64,000 nucleotides of DNA, taken from Chloroflexota bacterium (GTDB taxonomy: Bacteria; Chloroflexota; Anaerolineae; Anaerolineales; Anaerolineaceae). Each line of letters begins with the position of its first letter. Positions within the stretch are counted from its first letter, which is position 1. A model generated the notes under the pieces. It did no database searches and was not told where the DNA came from. It worked only from the letters and a program-made list of their open reading frames with translations. The stretch lies in the NCBI GenBank assembly GCA_009773005.1, contig WOUT01000005.1, positions 87,231 through 151,230 of the forward strand, in the 5' to 3' direction. Shown piece after piece: positions 24,889 to 38,963 of the stretch. A program made the translations under genes and the position numbers.

Positions 24889-26640
24889 TTACTCATGGTT
24901 TTGGTTGGCAGAATATGATAATCGAATCGAGATATTCGTGCCTTTTCCTGGATTTGATGCAATATTTAGATCAGCGTTTATCAGATCAGCCCGCTCTTGC
25001 AATCCCAATAGACCAAAATGTCCTTTTTCTGGAAACTCCGCCGGGTTAGTTGGGACAACAAACCCCTTACCGTCGTCTCGAATTTTTACGGTGAGATCGG
25101 TGCCGGTAAATTCCATGTCTACCCATGCGTGTTTTGCACTGGAATGGTGAATCACATTATTAAGCGACTCTTGAACCATGCGATATAATGACATCTCACT
25201 TTGTGGGTCCAAGCGGCGTTCCTGTCCCATGGAGGTAAAGGTAGTTGGTATATTGGCAGACTGTTCCATTTCGCCAACTAACATTTCCAACGACGCGACT
25301 AATCCCAAATCTTCAAGGTAGATTGGTCGCAAACCTCGGATCATTCGGCGCAAGTTCGTCATCGATTGCTGCACCATAATTTGCAATTCACTCAATGAAT
25401 TTTTTTGTGTTTCTGGAGAATTTATTAAGACCATCTGAATCCGTTGATTTAGGGCGATTAAGGACTGGGTGGTATCGTCATGCAGTTCACGTGCCAGGCT
25501 GCGGCGCTCATTTTCGATGCCGGCCGTAATCGCGCCAATGTAGCTCCTCAGGCTTTGTTGAGCTGCTTTCAGTTTATCAGCCATTTCTATCAATTCTGAC
25601 TGCAAGTTGCGAATTTCCTCAATACCTCCAACCGGTTGATGAATGGGATCAAAATCCCCCATGGCTAAACTGGCAGCTTGTTTCTCTAAATTTTGCAGAG
25701 GCGTAACGATCCGGCGAGCTCCAAACCATATCGCAAGAAGCGCCAGCAGAAATACAGGTACGATCACCAAAGGCGCAGATTGGGTAGTGATCAGGTAAGG
25801 GCTGGCTATATCCTCCCATGCCTCCTCGATTACTAACCCCCACCCGATTGCAGAGATGGGATTAAATGCGACAACATGCTCTCCTTCGCTGCCTTGATAG
25901 AAATTGATCCCGCTTTCACCGTTCAGAACTTCCTGAATTCCCGGGTGTGAGGGAACGCTTTCATCGATTTTGAATGGACCCCCTCGATAAAGCACATCAA
26001 AATTTCCTATTGTTTTAGCGGGGCTCACGACTAAAACCGTAGTCTGTCCGGAACTTGCTAAACTCCCGATTGCATTTTCGATAAACCGATCTGGAGAAAA
26101 AGCTCCAACCAGCACCTTATGCTGGTCTGTGAGAATTCCAATAAAGATGTAGGAATGGGGATTTCCAGGCGGTGAGATCAGGGGTGAAAATGTCGGATGG
26201 CTTATGTTTTCCAATGTCTTATTGAAGGTATCAGAGATTTGGGTTGGGATGGTTTGCCAATCGATCTGGGTTGTGGAAGAATGGATCAGGCTACCATCGG
26301 TATGATAGAGGGCAATTCCACCATCGAAAATGGAAGAAATTTCCTCCTTGCTTAGGAGCAGAGAAGTAAAATCGGATTTTCCGCTTAAATTGCGCGATAA
26401 AATCTGGATCATACTGGTCATGTGAGAGATTTCCCGCTCTAGGGAACTGGATGCGGCACGCACAGTTCTGAGATCCCTGTCGCCCACCAGGCTGCGCATG
26501 GCATCATGATGAAGCGTCTGACTTCCAAAAGCAACTGCCAAGAGAAGCCCGGTCAACGGGAGAACAATGATTAAGAATAATTGGAGAGTAAATCCCCTCC
26601 AATTGGATTTCTTATTGGGTGGGTGATTAAATCCTGACAA
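24889..26640 (-). CDS. NarL-type sensor histidine kinase with extracytoplasmic sensor
   Basis: About 583 residues. Two membrane helices (near residues 20-40 and 290-310) flank a 250-residue extracytoplasmic sensor of dCache type. Then HAMP, and a HisKA_3 dimerisation helix ENERRSLARELHDDTTQ with the phospho-accepting His (396 when counted from TTG 26667), and an HATPase domain with VQESLNNVIHHSSAKHA and IRDDGKGFVVP. Start: TTG at 26640 follows GAAAGGTG; another TTG lies at 26667. It follows the response regulator gene (26694) by about 50 bp and is its likely partner. Confidence 0.87.
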   Translation of the reverse strand: MSGFNHPPNKKSNWRGFTLQLFLIIVLPLTGLLLAVAFGSQTLHHDAMRSLVGDRDLRTVRAASSSLEREISHMTSMIQILSRNLSGKSDFTSLLLSKEEISSIFDGGIALYHTDGSLIHSSTTQIDWQTIPTQISDTFNKTLENISHPTFSPLISPPGNPHSYIFIGILTDQHKVLVGAFSPDRFIENAIGSLASSGQTTVLVVSPAKTIGNFDVLYRGGPFKIDESVPSHPGIQEVLNGESGINFYQGSEGEHVVAFNPISAIGWGLVIEEAWEDIASPYLITTQSAPLVIVPVFLLALLAIWFGARRIVTPLQNLEKQAASLAMGDFDPIHQPVGGIEEIRNLQSELIEMADKLKAAQQSLRSYIGAITAGIENERRSLARELHDDTTQSLIALNQRIQMVLINSPETQKNSLSELQIMVQQSMTNLRRMIRGLRPIYLEDLGLVASLEMLVGEMEQSANIPTTFTSMGQERRLDPQSEMSLYRMVQESLNNVIHHSSAKHAWVDMEFTGTDLTVKIRDDGKGFVVPTNPAEFPEKGHFGLLGLQERADLINADLNIASNPGKGTNISIRLSYSANQNHE

Positions 26641-26693
26641 GACACACCTTTCAACATTTCCGGACAATACATCCTAGCCGGGTACTTAATGTA

Positions 26694-27368
26694 TTACGAT
26701 ATTTCGGTAACGTTGGCTGAAATCAAACCTAGTGAAACCGCCCGCATCACGGCTTCGGTACGGCTCTCGGCATTTAACTTTTGGAAGATATTTGCAAGGT
26801 GGTTCTGCACAGTCCGGTCACTGATCCCCAACTGTACACCGATAGCCTTATTGGTAAACCCCTTCGCTGTCAGGGTTAAGATCTGAAGTTCACGACTGGT
26901 GAGGGGTTCGACTAACGTTGAATCGTCTTTCCTAGTCAGCTTGACAATCAACTTTTGGGCAAGTGTCGCATCCAGAACGGATTTTCCCTGAAATACATCG
27001 CGCACACCTTTAACGATCTCTTGTGGTTCGGCAGTCTTCAGTACATATCCATTCGCTCCGGCTTGAAGTACAGCCTGAACGTACGGATCGTCATCATAGG
27101 CTGTCAAAACCAGGACGCCGATGGGTAACCGGTTTGACCGGATCCAGCGGGTTACTTCAATCCCGCTCAATACAGGCATTTGGATATCCAGAACGGCAAC
27201 ATCCGGCTTAAATTGCTCAATCAGCTCGCAAGCTTCCTGACCATTAGATGCTTCGGCGATAACCTGAATATCCGAGCTTTGTTCCAGGAATTGGCGGATC
27301 CCGGCACGAACCACTACATGGTCGTCGGCGAGTAGAACATGGATAATTTGTGGGGGTTGCGAAGTCAT
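26694..27368 (-). CDS. NarL/FixJ-family response regulator
   Basis: 224 residues from ATG 27368. Receiver: VLLADDHVVVRAG, phospho-acceptor Asp61 in VAVLDIQMP, VLVLTAYDDDP; LuxR-type C-terminus LTSRELQILTLTAKGFTNKAIGVQLGISDRTVQNHLANIF. It pairs with the kinase just downstream and is a close paralogue of the orphan regulator at 17231. The NarL class often binds short inverted repeats, so the TAGGC palindrome of the island is a possible target. Confidence 0.9.
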   Translation of the reverse strand: MTSQPPQIIHVLLADDHVVVRAGIRQFLEQSSDIQVIAEASNGQEACELIEQFKPDVAVLDIQMPVLSGIEVTRWIRSNRLPIGVLVLTAYDDDPYVQAVLQAGANGYVLKTAEPQEIVKGVRDVFQGKSVLDATLAQKLIVKLTRKDDSTLVEPLTSRELQILTLTAKGFTNKAIGVQLGISDRTVQNHLANIFQKLNAESRTEAVMRAVSLGLISANVTEIS

Positions 27369-27441
27369 AATCAATTAATTATACATGCAACCATTCGTAG
27401 AAAATATCTGAAATCTTTAAAATGAATCAAGGTTGGTTCGG

Positions 27442-28467
27442 CTACTCTTGATTTGAAAAACCCCAAACAAAGGTGTAAATATAACTAACTATATCCTCAA
27501 TCTGTTTGGCAGTGAAGATCGGGCCCCAGTAAGGCATACCAGTTCCCATTCCTCCCCTGATAATCTTCCCTTCGAGTAATGCCGGACTCGCTCCGAGCAT
27601 GTTTTTGGGATCAGTGAAATCAGGCGGACTCACAAATCCTTCACCCGTCGATAGGTGGGGCGAATCGCCTGAAGAGTGGAGTCCCGGGTTCCAAACAGGT
27701 AATCCGCGCACCATCACCCCATCCCCTTTCCCTGTCTCACCGTGACAAGCTGCACAGTTGTTGGCAAATAGTTTTTGCCCGTTAGCTAATGCGTCCATCG
27801 TTGTTTGCTGCAGCCAAATCCAGGTAACTGCGTCCCACAAGTCATTATCGCTCAAATTTGATAAAGTTGCCTCAGCTCGCAACCGCAACCATAAATTTTC
27901 GGGGCTGGTCGAGAGGTAAGTATCTCTATTCTTAGCATAAGCAGGAAGTAATCCTGCAAACTGAGCCCCTCGTTCGGCGGAAGTAGTTTTAGAAGGTATA
28001 GTTTTTGCAGGCTGGGGAGCATCGATATCAATGCCCAATTTCAAAAATAAAGGTTGAGGATCCAGCGCCAGTGGCGTTCCAGTACCGGACACTTCGATTG
28101 TTCCGCGCATTCGCCAGTGGTTAGGACCACACCAACGGTTGCAATAAAAAGTATATTTTCCGGGTTTGTCAAAAATCAGTGTCGTTTCGATGAATTCTCC
28201 CGGAATGATTTCCAAAGCAGGTTGGTCTGATTTTCCAATTGCAAATCCATGCACTACATCATCACTTGTGATGTGAAGATGAATGGGCTGGCTAACCTCG
28301 GCTTGGATCGTGTCCGGGCTCCAGCCGCCATTTTCCGGCATGCGGGCATGTAATTCAATGGCGGCAGGCTGGTTCCTACCTGACAACCATTGACCAGCAA
28401 ATGGAATCGTCACTGCGACAAGAATAAACAAAATAACTAGTGAACGCGCCAAGTACTCTTTTTTCAT
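27442..28467 (-). CDS. CuA-domain/cytochrome c fusion protein
   Basis: 341 residues from ATG 28467, five bases before the upstream gene's stop is passed; a TTG at 28479 is the alternative. N-terminal membrane anchor, then a COX2-like cupredoxin with the full CuA ligand set: VVHGF (His) and YCNRWCGPNHWRM (Cys, Cys, His, Met). The C-terminal half is a class I cytochrome c: CAACHGETGKGDG and a distal Met in MGTGMPYWG. No oxidase subunit I or nitrous-oxide reductase is nearby. It should accept electrons outside the membrane from the NapH-like protein. Confidence 0.88.
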   Translation of the reverse strand: MKKEYLARSLVILFILVAVTIPFAGQWLSGRNQPAAIELHARMPENGGWSPDTIQAEVSQPIHLHITSDDVVHGFAIGKSDQPALEIIPGEFIETTLIFDKPGKYTFYCNRWCGPNHWRMRGTIEVSGTGTPLALDPQPLFLKLGIDIDAPQPAKTIPSKTTSAERGAQFAGLLPAYAKNRDTYLSTSPENLWLRLRAEATLSNLSDNDLWDAVTWIWLQQTTMDALANGQKLFANNCAACHGETGKGDGVMVRGLPVWNPGLHSSGDSPHLSTGEGFVSPPDFTDPKNMLGASPALLEGKIIRGGMGTGMPYWGPIFTAKQIEDIVSYIYTFVWGFSNQE

Positions 28468-28471
28468 AGTC

Positions 28472-29797
28472 TTAACCAATTAATAACCATAACATACTTA
28501 AGGAAAAAATAATGGAAAATGCAATCAATGGTAAAGCCTGTTTTACAGACTCAGTGATTCGACGTGCCACCCGGCTGGCCCAAAACAAACCAACCGCCAG
28601 GAGAACTACTTGTAACAACAAACTGAAAGATGTGGATTGTCCCACCCAGGACGTTCCCGACATCCCAATCAGGTTCCAACCCCAACCTAGCGGGTCAGAA
28701 ATCACCGGCAACACATAGGAAAATTTTGCAAAGGCAAATGAAATTGTAAATGCGATCCATGCCATCATTCCTAATGGAACGAGTAATTGACTGAATTGTG
28801 CCAAAGACTGGCGTAAAGTTGTTTTTATCGCACCGAGCCGCATAGATGCCCACACTGCGGCAATATAAAGACCTGGCAAAATACCCAAAGCCACAACGAT
28901 AAAGACCCCGGCAAAAAGGAGCCACGGTAAACTGCCAATAGCATACGCCGCCGATTTGAGCTGCCCCCACGGGCCTAGGAAAATTGCCGAATCAACCAGT
29001 GCGCTGGCTAACATCACTAACCCGAGAAAAGCCTCATCAAGGTTGTGTTTTGTCTTCGACCCCAGGTCACTGCCCCAAGGACGCAAATTGACTGCGATAT
29101 TGTCCGTCGGGCAAACGCGCAGACATTCCATACAGAGGCCACAATTCGCGCTGGATTTTAAGGCCAGCGGGTACAGTCCCCAAGGACAGGCATCGTAGCA
29201 TACTTTTTCATCATGAGCAGCGCAGATATCGGCATCTTTGACACGCACTTCCACCGGACCGACTTGGGCATATAAACCGGTGAAACCACCAATTGGACAA
29301 AGGTAGTTACAGAAAGAGCGCCTCTCAAAGACCAGACTAAGGATGAGTGCGAGGAGGAGGATGACCATTAACACAATTGCAGTCACTAGAGGCGATGTCA
29401 ACGTCACTGCGCCAAATAACCCCACCATGAGAAACCCGCCAGCCTGCAGCCAGCTCCCGCGCATGGCTTTCGGCCAACGCTTTCCCAACCCTATGCCTTT
29501 TCCACAAGGCTGCAATATGCCGCCATTCTGAAGCCATTCTCCAGGCATGGGGATAGGGCAGATACTGCACCACGAGCGCCCGCCAAAGGGGATGAAGAAT
29601 AGTTTGAGTGCCGTCCACCAAGCGATCCAGACAAAGATGATGGCGAAGTTATGGCTACCGACCACTGATCCGAACAACCCGGCAAAAATCGTGAAAACGA
29701 ACCCGGCCAAGGTGATGGCGCGCAGTAAAAATTGCGGCCAACGGCTGCGCAACAGAGTTTGAGTCCAGGAAATATGAGTCAAGTCCAGACGTGTCAT
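28472..29797 (-). CDS. NapH/NosR-like polyferredoxin membrane protein
   Basis: 441 residues. Membrane helices at both ends surround Cys clusters: WCSICPIPMPGEW, FCNYLCPIGGFTG, a CAAHDEKVCYDACPW stretch and ANCGLCMECLRVCPTDN, the last being a 4Fe-4S ferredoxin motif. NapH and NosR proteins pass electrons from quinol to extracytoplasmic acceptors. Its ATG overlaps the TGA of the CuA gene (ATGA), and the CuA-cytochrome c gene begins at its stop, so the three are translationally linked. Confidence 0.85.
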   Translation of the reverse strand: MTRLDLTHISWTQTLLRSRWPQFLLRAITLAGFVFTIFAGLFGSVVGSHNFAIIFVWIAWWTALKLFFIPFGGRSWCSICPIPMPGEWLQNGGILQPCGKGIGLGKRWPKAMRGSWLQAGGFLMVGLFGAVTLTSPLVTAIVLMVILLLALILSLVFERRSFCNYLCPIGGFTGLYAQVGPVEVRVKDADICAAHDEKVCYDACPWGLYPLALKSSANCGLCMECLRVCPTDNIAVNLRPWGSDLGSKTKHNLDEAFLGLVMLASALVDSAIFLGPWGQLKSAAYAIGSLPWLLFAGVFIVVALGILPGLYIAAVWASMRLGAIKTTLRQSLAQFSQLLVPLGMMAWIAFTISFAFAKFSYVLPVISDPLGWGWNLIGMSGTSWVGQSTSFSLLLQVVLLAVGLFWASRVARRITESVKQALPLIAFSIIFSLSMLWLLIG

Positions 29798-30300
29798 TTT
29801 ATGTACCTGGATTGTTGGTCCGGAAACATCCGCAGAGAAACGAGTGCTGCGATAACGGCCAGCAAGCTTAATGCAATGCTGCGCAGTAGCAAAAGATTTG
29901 GACCTACTTTGAGCTTTCCGATCATGAAGGGATGGAGGTTACCGCAAGCCACCGAACAGCGAAAGCGGAAGACGCCTGATTTGTCTGCTATAAATGTTCC
30001 GGTCGCTGTTTGCCCGGGGTCAGCTTTCAATTCAAAATTATAGCCATCCAGGGAAAAACCATGTACTACGTCTGTTGAAACCAATTCAATGGTTACTCGA
30101 TCACCCTGATTAACCTTCAATTCTCCAGGAGAGAATTGAAACATACTGGCTTCAATGCGGATATTTCGGTCCGCGGGTGAATTGCTAGGGATTGGCAATG
30201 GCGTAAACAGGATCAACAGGAGTGATACCGCAAACAGGAAAATCCATCCCCAGCGTTTCCAAAGTCTTTTGGTCGCGTTGTTCAGTGCTTTCGATTCCAT
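29794..30300 (-). CDS. Membrane protein with CuA-type cupredoxin domain
   Basis: 168 residues from ATG 30300, 4 bp after the PCYCGC stop; an ATG at 30336 would overlap that gene. One N-terminal helix (WGWIFLFAVSLLLILF), a cupredoxin with VVHGFSLDGYNFELK and FRFRCSVACGNLHPFMIGKL, and a second helix (LLLLRSIALSLLAVIAALVSL). The His, Cys, Cys, His, Met set equals the CuA site of oxidase subunit II. Electron carrier outside the membrane, partner of the NapH-like and CuA-cytochrome proteins. Confidence 0.85.
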   Translation of the reverse strand: MESKALNNATKRLWKRWGWIFLFAVSLLLILFTPLPIPSNSPADRNIRIEASMFQFSPGELKVNQGDRVTIELVSTDVVHGFSLDGYNFELKADPGQTATGTFIADKSGVFRFRCSVACGNLHPFMIGKLKVGPNLLLLRSIALSLLAVIAALVSLRMFPDQQSRYIK

Positions 30301-30304
30301 AGAT

Positions 30305-30784
30305 TTATCGGGTCGGCGGCATGTTTGAGGGGCCATACTGTGCGTAAGTCTGATCGATAGCGACTCGAATTTCTTGAGATGACTTCCCGTCCTTTGTCAT
30401 TTTCATCACATCCTGGGCAATATCAACACAGATCGAGCATCCGAGGGCGTGCTGATCATATACGATTTCGCCCGAAGATTTTATTTCTTTTACATAGCAG
30501 GCATAGTTGGAGGTGTGCCCAACTGAGCCGCATCCGCAATAACAAGGCACATTCTTCAACGCGCCCGGATTTACAATTGCAAACTGGTATGTTTCCTGTA
30601 CTGTGGTCGGGGCTTGTTGTATTTCTTGCGGCATCTCTGAAATGGGAACCATCTTACTCAAATCATTAGAAGATGGATTTGTATTACCGCTGCAGCCAGT
30701 CAGGAGAAAAACCACCGGAACCAAGGCCACTAACAATAGCAGCCAGGGAGAGCGAAGGATAGTGCGGGGTGAGGAAATTTCCAT
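30305..30784 (-). CDS. PCYCGC-motif lipoprotein
   Basis: 159 residues from ATG 30784 (AAGGTG upstream; GTG 30793 also possible). Lipoprotein signal LLLVALVPVVFLLTGCSG, then the family motif KNVPCYCGCGSVGH, followed by NYACYVKE and HALGCSICVDIAQDVM. Six conserved Cys after the lipid anchor suggest metal or redox function. Biochemical role unknown. First gene of the CuA/NapH/CuA-cytochrome operon, with a perfect TAGGC palindrome 95 bp upstream. Confidence 0.87.
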   Translation of the reverse strand: MEISSPRTILRSPWLLLLVALVPVVFLLTGCSGNTNPSSNDLSKMVPISEMPQEIQQAPTTVQETYQFAIVNPGALKNVPCYCGCGSVGHTSNYACYVKEIKSSGEIVYDQHALGCSICVDIAQDVMKMTKDGKSSQEIRVAIDQTYAQYGPSNMPPTR

Positions 30785-31006: not shown

Positions 31007-31501
31007 TTACGGAACCCAATTCGAGAGGACGGTGAGTGATAAGTCTTTATTGTCAAGGTCATTGTTCGGGATATGAACTCCGAAGTTATGTTTCCCGCCC
31101 ATATCACCATGCATCATAAATTGCATCGAAAGGGTGGTCTTCTCACCTGGTTTTAAGGTCATCGAACCGATGACAGGGGTGGGTGGTCAACACCCCTCCC
31201 TTACTTCAATATAGGGTGTTTTCGAAAAACGAAGAGGCTCATCCCCGACATTTGTAATGGAAAAAGCAACCTGAACCGGGGTACCCAATTTTACATCACC
31301 TAAGTCAACCACTTCTTTGTCAACCTTTAAACTTGGCCCCCCAGCGACTTCAGGTATATAAGGGGAAGCCTTTTTTTGAAATGCGAAAAAAGCGGCAATG
31401 AGCAAAATCACTGCCCCGCCTACTACCCAGAACAACGTTATCTTATTGCTTTTTTTCTGGGGCTGTCTGCGGTTTGATAAATAAGGTTTCGTCTTCGGCA
31501 T
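31007..31501 (-). CDS. Candidate selenoprotein: DUF1573-like membrane-anchored protein, Sec105
   Basis: Read as 164 residues with the TGA at 31189-31187 as selenocysteine 105. N-terminus: basic, one membrane helix (ITLFWVVGGAVILLIAAFFAF), then a DUF1573-like Ig domain (VVDLGDVKLGTPVQVAFSITNVGDEPLRF). The first stop lies in IEVREGC-U-PPTPVIGSM, i.e. a Cys-Sec pair before Pro-Pro. The same frame stays open for 59 codons with protein-like sequence (LKPGEKTTLSMQFMMHGDMGG, FGVHIPNND) to a TAA at 31007. A stem-loop follows the TGA at SECIS distance. AGGAGGGGC precedes the ATG. The Cys-Sec pair likely binds metal or does redox chemistry outside the cell. Confidence 0.75.
31158..31186 (-). promoter_or_regulatory. 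SECIS-like stem-loop after in-frame TGA
   Basis: On the minus strand, 12 nt after the TGA, a perfect 6-bp stem GTCATC/GATGAC closes a 5-nt loop GGTTC; the loop lies 19-23 nt after the TGA. Bacterial SECIS elements are hairpins at about this distance with a G-U in the apical loop, as here. Fit judged by eye. Confidence 0.6.
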
Positions 31502-31568
31502 TTTTGCCCCTCCTTTGTAATAGAAATTGAATTGAAGACATTGTAAAAGACAAGGTTAATAGCCACAA

Positions 31569-38118: not shown

Positions 38119-38355
38119 ATGTCGAAAAAACATGGGTTGATCATGATCGCTTGCTGCGTGATCGCAATGGGCGCAGCAGTAGCGGTTTTCTTTTTCAAAG
38201 TACCCGCAAACAATGTGTTTATTATTTTATTGTTCTTGCTCTGCCCATTGTCCCACGTTCTCATGATGGGCATGATGGGGCGCGGAAATCATGAGCATCA
38301 CGAAACATCCGAGAAATTACCTTCTCCAAAGAATTTAGGGAAGGGTTTAGAGTAA
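38119..38355 (+). CDS. DUF2933-like small membrane protein
   Basis: 78 residues: two membrane segments (MIACCVIAMGAAVAVFFF and VFIILLFLLCPLSHVLMMGMM) and a His-rich tail GRGNHEHHETSE. This is the DUF2933 plan found beside copper genes. AGGAGATATGA precedes the ATG. Its TAA overlaps the ATG of the DUF1573 gene (TAATG). Confidence 0.7.
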   Translation: MSKKHGLIMIACCVIAMGAAVAVFFFKVPANNVFIILLFLLCPLSHVLMMGMMGRGNHEHHETSEKLPSPKNLGKGLE

Positions 38356-38963
38356 TGGCCAAGCAAGTCCCGTCGTTCCCTTTGGGGAAGCAACCTCAAT
38401 CTATCTTTGAATTTCTACGCAAAACCGGAAATAAAACTTGGAATTATGTAATTCCGGGAACGACAGGATTATTAGTGCTTGCACTCTTACTCTATGGGAT
38501 CCTGACGTGGAGTACGGATAACTCGAAAATTCAATACAAACCAGCAGATGTAGTTTATGGAGAAAAGATTCACGCCGTGCACAATATGGGGTTGGGCTCT
38601 GTATCCCAAACCTCCACTTATTTTTTAACTTCTCTTTCTGCGAATCCAGAAATCCGTTTATCCGAAATATTTTATGATTTTGGAGAAGTCAATACACAGC
38701 AGGTGTTGACCCGCACATTCGTTATCGCAAATTTAGGTAAATCCCCATTAGTGATCTTACGGGCTTATACAACTTGCGGCTGCACTGTAGCGGATTTTAC
38801 TGCATCTGAAATTCCCCCGGGTAAAGTTGCCTTGATGACCCTCCAATTTAACACCGGATTCCACGATATGGCCGGCACAACCGTCCGCCGAGGTGTGGTG
38901 ATTGAGACCAACGATCCCGACCATCCAATCCAGGAAATTTGGGTGCAGGCTTCGGTAAGATGA
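38355..38963 (+). CDS. DUF1573 membrane-anchored protein
   Basis: 202 residues: one membrane helix (about 32-50), then a DUF1573 Ig-like domain: IFYDFGEVNTQQVLTRTFVIANLGKSPL, the conserved TTCGCTVADF motif and PPGKVALMTLQFNTGFHDMAG...VVIETNDPDHP. It is the ordinary Cys form of the domain and a distant relative of the candidate selenoprotein at 31007. Function of DUF1573 is not established. Last gene of the operon. Confidence 0.83.
   Translation: MAKQVPSFPLGKQPQSIFEFLRKTGNKTWNYVIPGTTGLLVLALLLYGILTWSTDNSKIQYKPADVVYGEKIHAVHNMGLGSVSQTSTYFLTSLSANPEIRLSEIFYDFGEVNTQQVLTRTFVIANLGKSPLVILRAYTTCGCTVADFTASEIPPGKVALMTLQFNTGFHDMAGTTVRRGVVIETNDPDHPIQEIWVQASVR

Follow-up and report, generated by a model that had tools for sequence, protein, structure and literature searches.

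A candidate DUF1573 selenoprotein with an adjacent Cys–Sec pair, encoded beside CuA-type genes in Chloroflexota

A gene on the reverse strand of the window (the whole 64,000-nucleotide stretch of Chloroflexota DNA that was analysed), at positions 31007..31501, almost certainly encodes a selenoprotein, as judged from sequence comparison, in which the in-frame TGA at codon 105 (31187..31189, reverse strand) specifies selenocysteine (Sec) directly after a cysteine. The gene and its product, termed here CU after this Cys–Sec pair, very probably represent Sec decoding in a distinct new subfamily of DUF1573 proteins. The product would be extracytoplasmic and is probably membrane-anchored, with a hydrophobic helix at the N-terminus and, after it, a DUF1573/ASH Ig-like domain that carries the adjacent pair. 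The frame runs from an ATG at 31501 to a TAA at 31009-31007 (495 bp, 165 codons including the stop) with 59 sense codons between the TGA and the TAA, and the TGA lies in the context GAG-GGG-TGT-TGA-CCA-CCC, or E-G-C-U-P-P, with a Cys codon before it and two Pro codons after it. All of these features, claimed in a preliminary description of this DNA, were re-read exactly so. A Shine-Dalgarno-like AAAGGAGGGG was read from the sequence directly 5' of the ATG (31507..31516, reverse strand). Translated with standard table 11 the gene ends at Cys104, and automatic annotation may therefore miss its second half.

The TGA codon across relatives

Bacterial and archaeal genome contigs, scanned with search patterns drawn from one single protein, gave 15 confirmed loci, all of which have TGA at the codon 105 column (15/15) and run past it to the same C-terminus. 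Among 41 near genomes, the window's own genome included, 13 matches were obtained: six of the TGA form (G000, G022, G026, G027, G035 and G040), four of a Cys form (G001, G002, G009 and G012, all from the same genus as the window's genome), and three weak matches that lack the motif (G028, G029 and G037). In a phylum sample of 400 genomes the profile matched 22, of which 21 have TGA at the column; the last, G229, has a DUF1573 protein of the usual CGC type. Together with the window gene there are 46 distinct motif-bearing rows, with TGA in 42 and TGC or TGT in 4; the row filter required [G/S]-C-[Sec/Cys]-P, so the 42 and 4 are valid for motif-bearing rows only, and the rows are kin to one another and do not count independent events. 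L038, L071 (at two places) and the second piece of L019 lack the motif and thus lie outside the set, and the stop-free pieces at G035:C1:3108774 and G150:C1:4125388 are parts of decayed or frameshifted copies. The preliminary description had proposed looking for Cys at the Sec position in related genomes and for homologues that end at the TGA. The former occurs in the four genus-mates, and no homologue of the latter kind was seen among those found, all of which continue through TGA or TGC/TGT.

The comparison further indicates that the protein downstream of the TGA is under purifying selection. Nei-Gojobori counts for 14 Sec forms and 2 Cys forms, each set against the window gene, gave pn/ps of 0.15-0.32 after the TGA. 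In 13 of these 16 comparisons pn/ps was lower downstream than upstream, and L015, L018 and L031 showed the opposite; many pairs are saturated at synonymous sites, and the values are to be taken as counts rather than fine estimates. That the UGA is a real stop, with the protein ending at Cys104 and the remainder a decayed relic or an artefact of assembly, is the standard table 11 reading, but it is scarcely credible given a downstream protein conserved with low pn/ps across many genomes, Cys codons in four relatives, and homologues none of which was found to end at the TGA. A pseudogene was refuted by the same comparison of homologues, and a sequencing error was rejected because 42 distinct sequences would not share an error at the same codon.

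In a midpoint-rooted tree, whose root serves for drawing only and from which L074, L077, L078, a duplicate of the window gene and identical rows were left out, the Cys forms make up one clade (support 94/91) nested within the Sec forms. This placement is as expected for a single replacement of Sec by Cys where the machinery was lost.

Several further copies and relatives were observed. L077 (G054:C277:87-521) is a divergent paralogue with SC-U-PQ and a perfect six-pair hairpin and without the M-H-x-x-M motif, while L074/L078 (G150:C1:4125080-4125534) and L038 (G035:C1:3108774-3108941) are extra copies of the CU gene that are apparently frameshifted or decayed. The locus L014 bears the title Clostridiales PH28_bin88; it is almost the same as the Levilinea locus L013 and was probably mis-binned. 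L010 comes from Leptolinea sp. HRD-7, a carrier that is in culture. Plasmids gave no match to the CU gene at E 1e-3, and 38 pattern-matching stretches in viral contigs yielded no confirmed relative, one of the two patterns used there, in which the Sec position was given as Cys, being blind to the TGA form.

The downstream hairpin and the selenocysteine machinery

The candidate bacterial SECIS (bSECIS) element is an apical hairpin at 31158..31174 (reverse strand), identified by covariation, a synonymous-codon null and folding. Its 6-bp stem and loop (GTCATC / GGTTC / GATGAC) begin after a 12-nt spacer, with 18 nt from the UGA to the apical loop, just as the preliminary description had it, and the G and C at the ends of the GGUUC loop are able to pair. 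The bSECIS rule given in the relevant passages of PMC13188914 calls for a G in the first two loop positions and 16-37 nt between UGA and loop, with which both the 18-nt distance and the loop GGUUC agree; the second loop position is G in 39/39 Sec rows.

In a gap-free alignment of 39 distinct Sec sequences, drawn from the 42 Sec rows by leaving out L014 (identical to L010 over this stretch), L065 (a near-copy of L064) and L074 (frameshifted), seven pairs are formed in 97.8% of 273 cells. Six of the seven pairs have changes on both sides, with 51 double-change cells compared with a shuffled mean of 15.4, and on four of five covariation measures the observed value was reached by 0 of 500 shuffles. 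The fifth measure, further pair types, gave 9 compared with a shuffled 8.7 and was reached by 269 of the 500. Sliding the partners by 1-3 columns left at most 66.7% of cells paired and at most 9 with double changes. At the fourth pair, A-U changes to G-C, with Ile and Met replaced jointly by Val and Thr; at the sixth, C-G changes to A-U or G-C. A perfect 6-bp stem is present in 38 of 42 Sec rows. In 2000 synonymous-codon shuffles, for which the pooled codon usage contains the tested sequences, the number of such rows averaged 6.9 and never exceeded 15; the four Cys rows retain 3-4 of the 6 stem pairs. Folded as a single sequence, the hairpin has unremarkable stability (z -1.18, with 25 of 200 shuffles folding as well), and a search of Rfam gave no SECIS match at the hairpin and one chance-level match on the other strand. 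The alignment evidence indicates that the hairpin is selected as RNA. We propose that it would direct the decoding of UGA 105 as selenocysteine by SelB and tRNA-Sec.

The genes for such decoding, for which a search elsewhere in the genome had been suggested, are all present in the window's genome over the curated cut-offs: tRNA-Sec (selC) at 60.5 bits, selB at 324 bits, selA at 547 bits and selD at 348 bits. The selD gene (L048, G000:C33:35485-36420) itself has an in-frame TGA, in NCAG-U, and so represents a Sec-containing SelD. The four models are unequally specific, with 5 (tRNA-Sec), 2 (selB), 1 (selA) and 2 (selD) of 14 control genomes over the cut-off, and selA was therefore used for comparison. 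Across 48 genomes, 22 of the 24 that carry the Sec form have selA over the cut-off, and none of the four Cys-form genomes gives any selA match (Fisher p 7e-4), three of the latter being only 84-85% complete and the fourth, G009, 98%. The two exceptions among the Sec forms are G026, with a fragment at a contig end, and G068 (88% complete), with no match. Since selA was also over the cut-off in 14 of 20 relatives that lack the CU gene, its presence does not imply that gene.

It is highly improbable that the UGA is read as another amino acid through an altered code or read-through. Such a reading would accommodate the presence of Cys, rather than a stop, at the column in four relatives. However, several relatives' CU genes terminate at TGA themselves (for example L009, L015, L022 and L026), so UGA is not reassigned there, and the hairpin, the association with selA and the complete Sec set in the window's own genome are what Sec decoding needs. 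A reassigned UGA was rejected on the strength of the TGA-terminated relatives together with the hairpin and the machinery. The Cys–Sec selenoprotein of the preliminary description is thus upheld by the conserved TGA, the selected downstream coding sequence, the covarying hairpin and the Sec genes of the genome.

The protein domain and its relation to known DUF1573 selenoproteins

The hydrophobic stretch at residues 20-40 is a helix, of lower confidence, in an AlphaFold2 model and is likely a membrane anchor, as judged by eye and from the predicted helix. The DUF1573/ASH Ig-like domain spans residues ~53-164, and its beta structure is modelled with confidence (mean pLDDT 86.7). The DUF1573-like character noted at the outset agrees with a PF07610 score of 35.1 bits, above the Pfam gathering cut-off of 26.1, and the HYDIN/VesB Ig model PF22544 scores slightly higher (37.4 bits, cut-off 25.5). 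In structure comparison the predicted domain resembles ASH/PapD-like Ig folds; the best match among solved structures is 2QSV from Porphyromonas gingivalis, a protein of unknown function (Z 13.7, rmsd 2.5, 105 residues aligned, 21% identity). A sequence search of solved structures returned HYDIN (two), CFAP74, OCRL-1 and EutS (E 0.99). Residues invariant in a 24-row alignment include C104, U/C105, P106, P107, M114, M130, H131, M134 and H138, with M114 and P107 replaced in the most distant forms, and the stretch M-[HS]-..-M-[GD]-[GNS]-x-H is present in 43 of 46 rows (absent from L070, L074 and L077). From general Ig topology, the loop with the Cys–Sec pair and the loop with this Met/His stretch may sit together at one end of the domain.

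A DUF1573 selenoprotein with the motif UGC was reportedly first predicted from Olavius algarvensis symbionts. The UGC form had been tabulated earlier (PMC9312934 and PMC13188914, in the relevant passages), and for this reason the new selenoprotein family of the preliminary description is corrected to a new subfamily, the selenoprotein itself standing. Proteins that share a domain and differ in Sec position or motif are treated as distinct subfamilies in the passage of PMC13188914 concerned; by this rule, the differing Sec position would make the CU protein a new subfamily. The known form, OS_HP2 (NF041425), and the CU protein share the DUF1573 domain, Sec decoding and a Sec near the CGC loop of the domain. 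However, OS_HP2 has the motif UGC with Sec at the first Cys, whereas the CU protein has GCUPP with Sec after the second Cys position, and the CU protein was recovered here from Chloroflexota, often with CuA-type genes next to it. None of the matches listed from the open-licence literature in PMC is a DUF1573 selenoprotein of the CUPP type.

It is unlikely that the CU protein is a plain member of the OS_HP2 subfamily with its UGC motif. The two share a Pfam domain, PF07610, and NF041425, which we infer from the model name and the domain to stand for the UGC form, does match the CU protein weakly. This match is only 27.8 bits against a curated cut-off of 100, and no NF041425 hit over that cut-off was obtained in any of 28 carrier genomes. 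In addition, hhalign places E102 on the first Cys of CGC and C104 on the second, with Sec in an inserted column, a placement that may be off by about one residue and for which the partners were three CGC-type domains rather than UGC members. The window's genome contains just two DUF1573 matches, the CU gene and a protein at 38355-38963 on the forward strand of the window, which has an ordinary TTCGC, no in-frame stop and an NF041425 score of 64.9 bits (below 100).

Gene neighbourhood and a possible role in CuA assembly

On the same strand, the CU gene is followed in order by genes for a PCYCGC family protein (PF13798; 30305..30793), a cupredoxin/COX2-like protein with the CuA motif C-x3-C-x3-H-x2-M (29794..30336), a membrane ferredoxin-type protein resembling NapH/MauN (Fer4_5; 28472..29797), a CuA-type domain fused to cytochrome c (27442..28479), a LuxR-type response regulator at the end of the gene row (26694..27374) and a sensor histidine kinase of the HisKA_3 type (24889..26667), all on the reverse strand. 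Conservation of this neighbourhood was counted in the 45 of 48 loci in which the motif was found (all but L096, L098 and L110), with neighbours clustered as single-linkage BLAST groups over simple ORF calls, each cluster taking its name from its member in the window or from a single representative. Among the 45 loci are several near-copies (L010, L011, L013 and L014), and several loci end at contig ends. Within 5 kb of the CU gene, the PCYCGC cluster is present in 30/45 loci, the CuA-type cluster in 31/45 (54 of the 59 proteins of this cluster have the C-x3-C-x3-H-x2-M motif) and the NapH-like cluster in 23/45. In the other 14 loci no CuA-type gene lies that close, some of these loci being cut by contig ends. 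Fewer loci have an HMA protein (5/45), a redoxin (7/45), DsbD_TM (5/45) or DoxX (5/45). The copper/redox island of the preliminary description is borne out by these recurrent neighbours, with copper handling by the CU protein itself being putative. On the forward strand, the gene for a sortase-domain protein (PF04203, 32111-32881) separates the CU gene from a two-component system.

The gene adjoining the CU gene belongs to the PCYCGC / OS_HP4 CYCXC family (PF13798, NF041379), which has a Sec form with UxxC (as described in part of PMC13188914). The window's copy contains Cys only and scores 66.5 bits with NF041379, below the cut-off of 90. In two other genomes a redoxin-like frame lies just upstream of the CU gene (L102:356-628 in G054:C194, and G042:C1:17374-17646), with a sub-threshold Sco match and a TlpA-like appearance by eye. 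The frame in G054 has an in-frame TGA in WATW-U-RWC (UxxC), and the redoxin-like frame is likely a second selenoprotein of the same neighbourhood.

Maturation of CuA in other bacteria involves a thiol reductant or a Cu(I) donor, for example Sco, TlpA or PCuAC (PMC6696091, in the part concerned). Since CuA maturation elsewhere uses such a factor, the CU protein, perhaps with the PCYCGC protein, may stand in that place. We therefore consider it possible, at somewhat less than an even chance, that the CU protein is anchored in the membrane and acts in CuA assembly as a Cu(I)/thiol factor. It and the neighbouring PCYCGC protein would serve the CuA-type cupredoxins encoded in this row of genes, either as a reductant of the CuA cysteines or as a carrier that holds Cu(I) and passes it on, the latter via the Cys–Sec pair and the conserved Met/His residues (M-H-x-x-M-G/D-G-x-H). 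Like Sco and PCuAC, the CU protein is predicted to be extracytoplasmic; the Cys residues of Sco are redox-active, and PCuAC has a site for Cu(I) made of Met and His (same part of PMC6696091), whereas the fold predicted here is ASH/PapD-like Ig rather than thioredoxin or the cupredoxin-like fold of PCuAC. Neither Sco (PF02630) nor PCuAC (PF04314) is among the six families that match the CU protein at E <= 1, and the profile search matched it to no copper-chaperone family.

The distribution of the established factors was also considered. In the window's genome neither COX1 (haem-copper oxidase subunit I) nor PCuAC is matched, and the only Sco match is sub-threshold (20.3 bits, cut-off 22.8). The four Cys-form genus-mates have no Sco over the cut-off and no PCuAC, and COX1 is present in three of them. 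In the Sec-form genomes G042, G214 and G402, no Sco, PCuAC or COX1 is over the cut-off, G042 and G214 being only 73-74% complete. Across the 28 carrier genomes Sco is over the cut-off in 16 and PCuAC in 10, so the CU protein is not a simple replacement for either.

A selenoprotein with a different role, either in general thiol or peroxide redox chemistry or in binding a soft metal other than copper, has close to an even chance of being the correct reading. Redox chemistry is the main use of Sec, and adjacent CU pairs are known in MerB-like SaoL, HgcA and SaoC, among others (both from the relevant passages of PMC13188914). DUF1573 is, moreover, a domain with no assigned function, and the TlpA-like frame (by eye) upstream in G054 has U-x-x-C. 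On the other hand, CuA-type cupredoxins are the most recurrent neighbours, the HMA-domain protein being within 5 kb in 5/45 loci, and the conserved Met and His residues may favour Cu(I).

The CU gene would add to a domain of unknown function a Sec form in which the Sec position has moved, and it ties a recurrent CuA/cytochrome gene row to selenium. With the Sec form, the Cys form and a broken hairpin all within one genus, it also offers a natural experiment on Sec loss. We tentatively suggest that the CU protein might be a selenium-based metallochaperone, in which the Cys–Sec pair and the Met/His residues would bind Cu(I) or reduce CuA cysteines in building the CuA proteins of Chloroflexota, including those of G000 (the window's genome), G042, G214 and G402.
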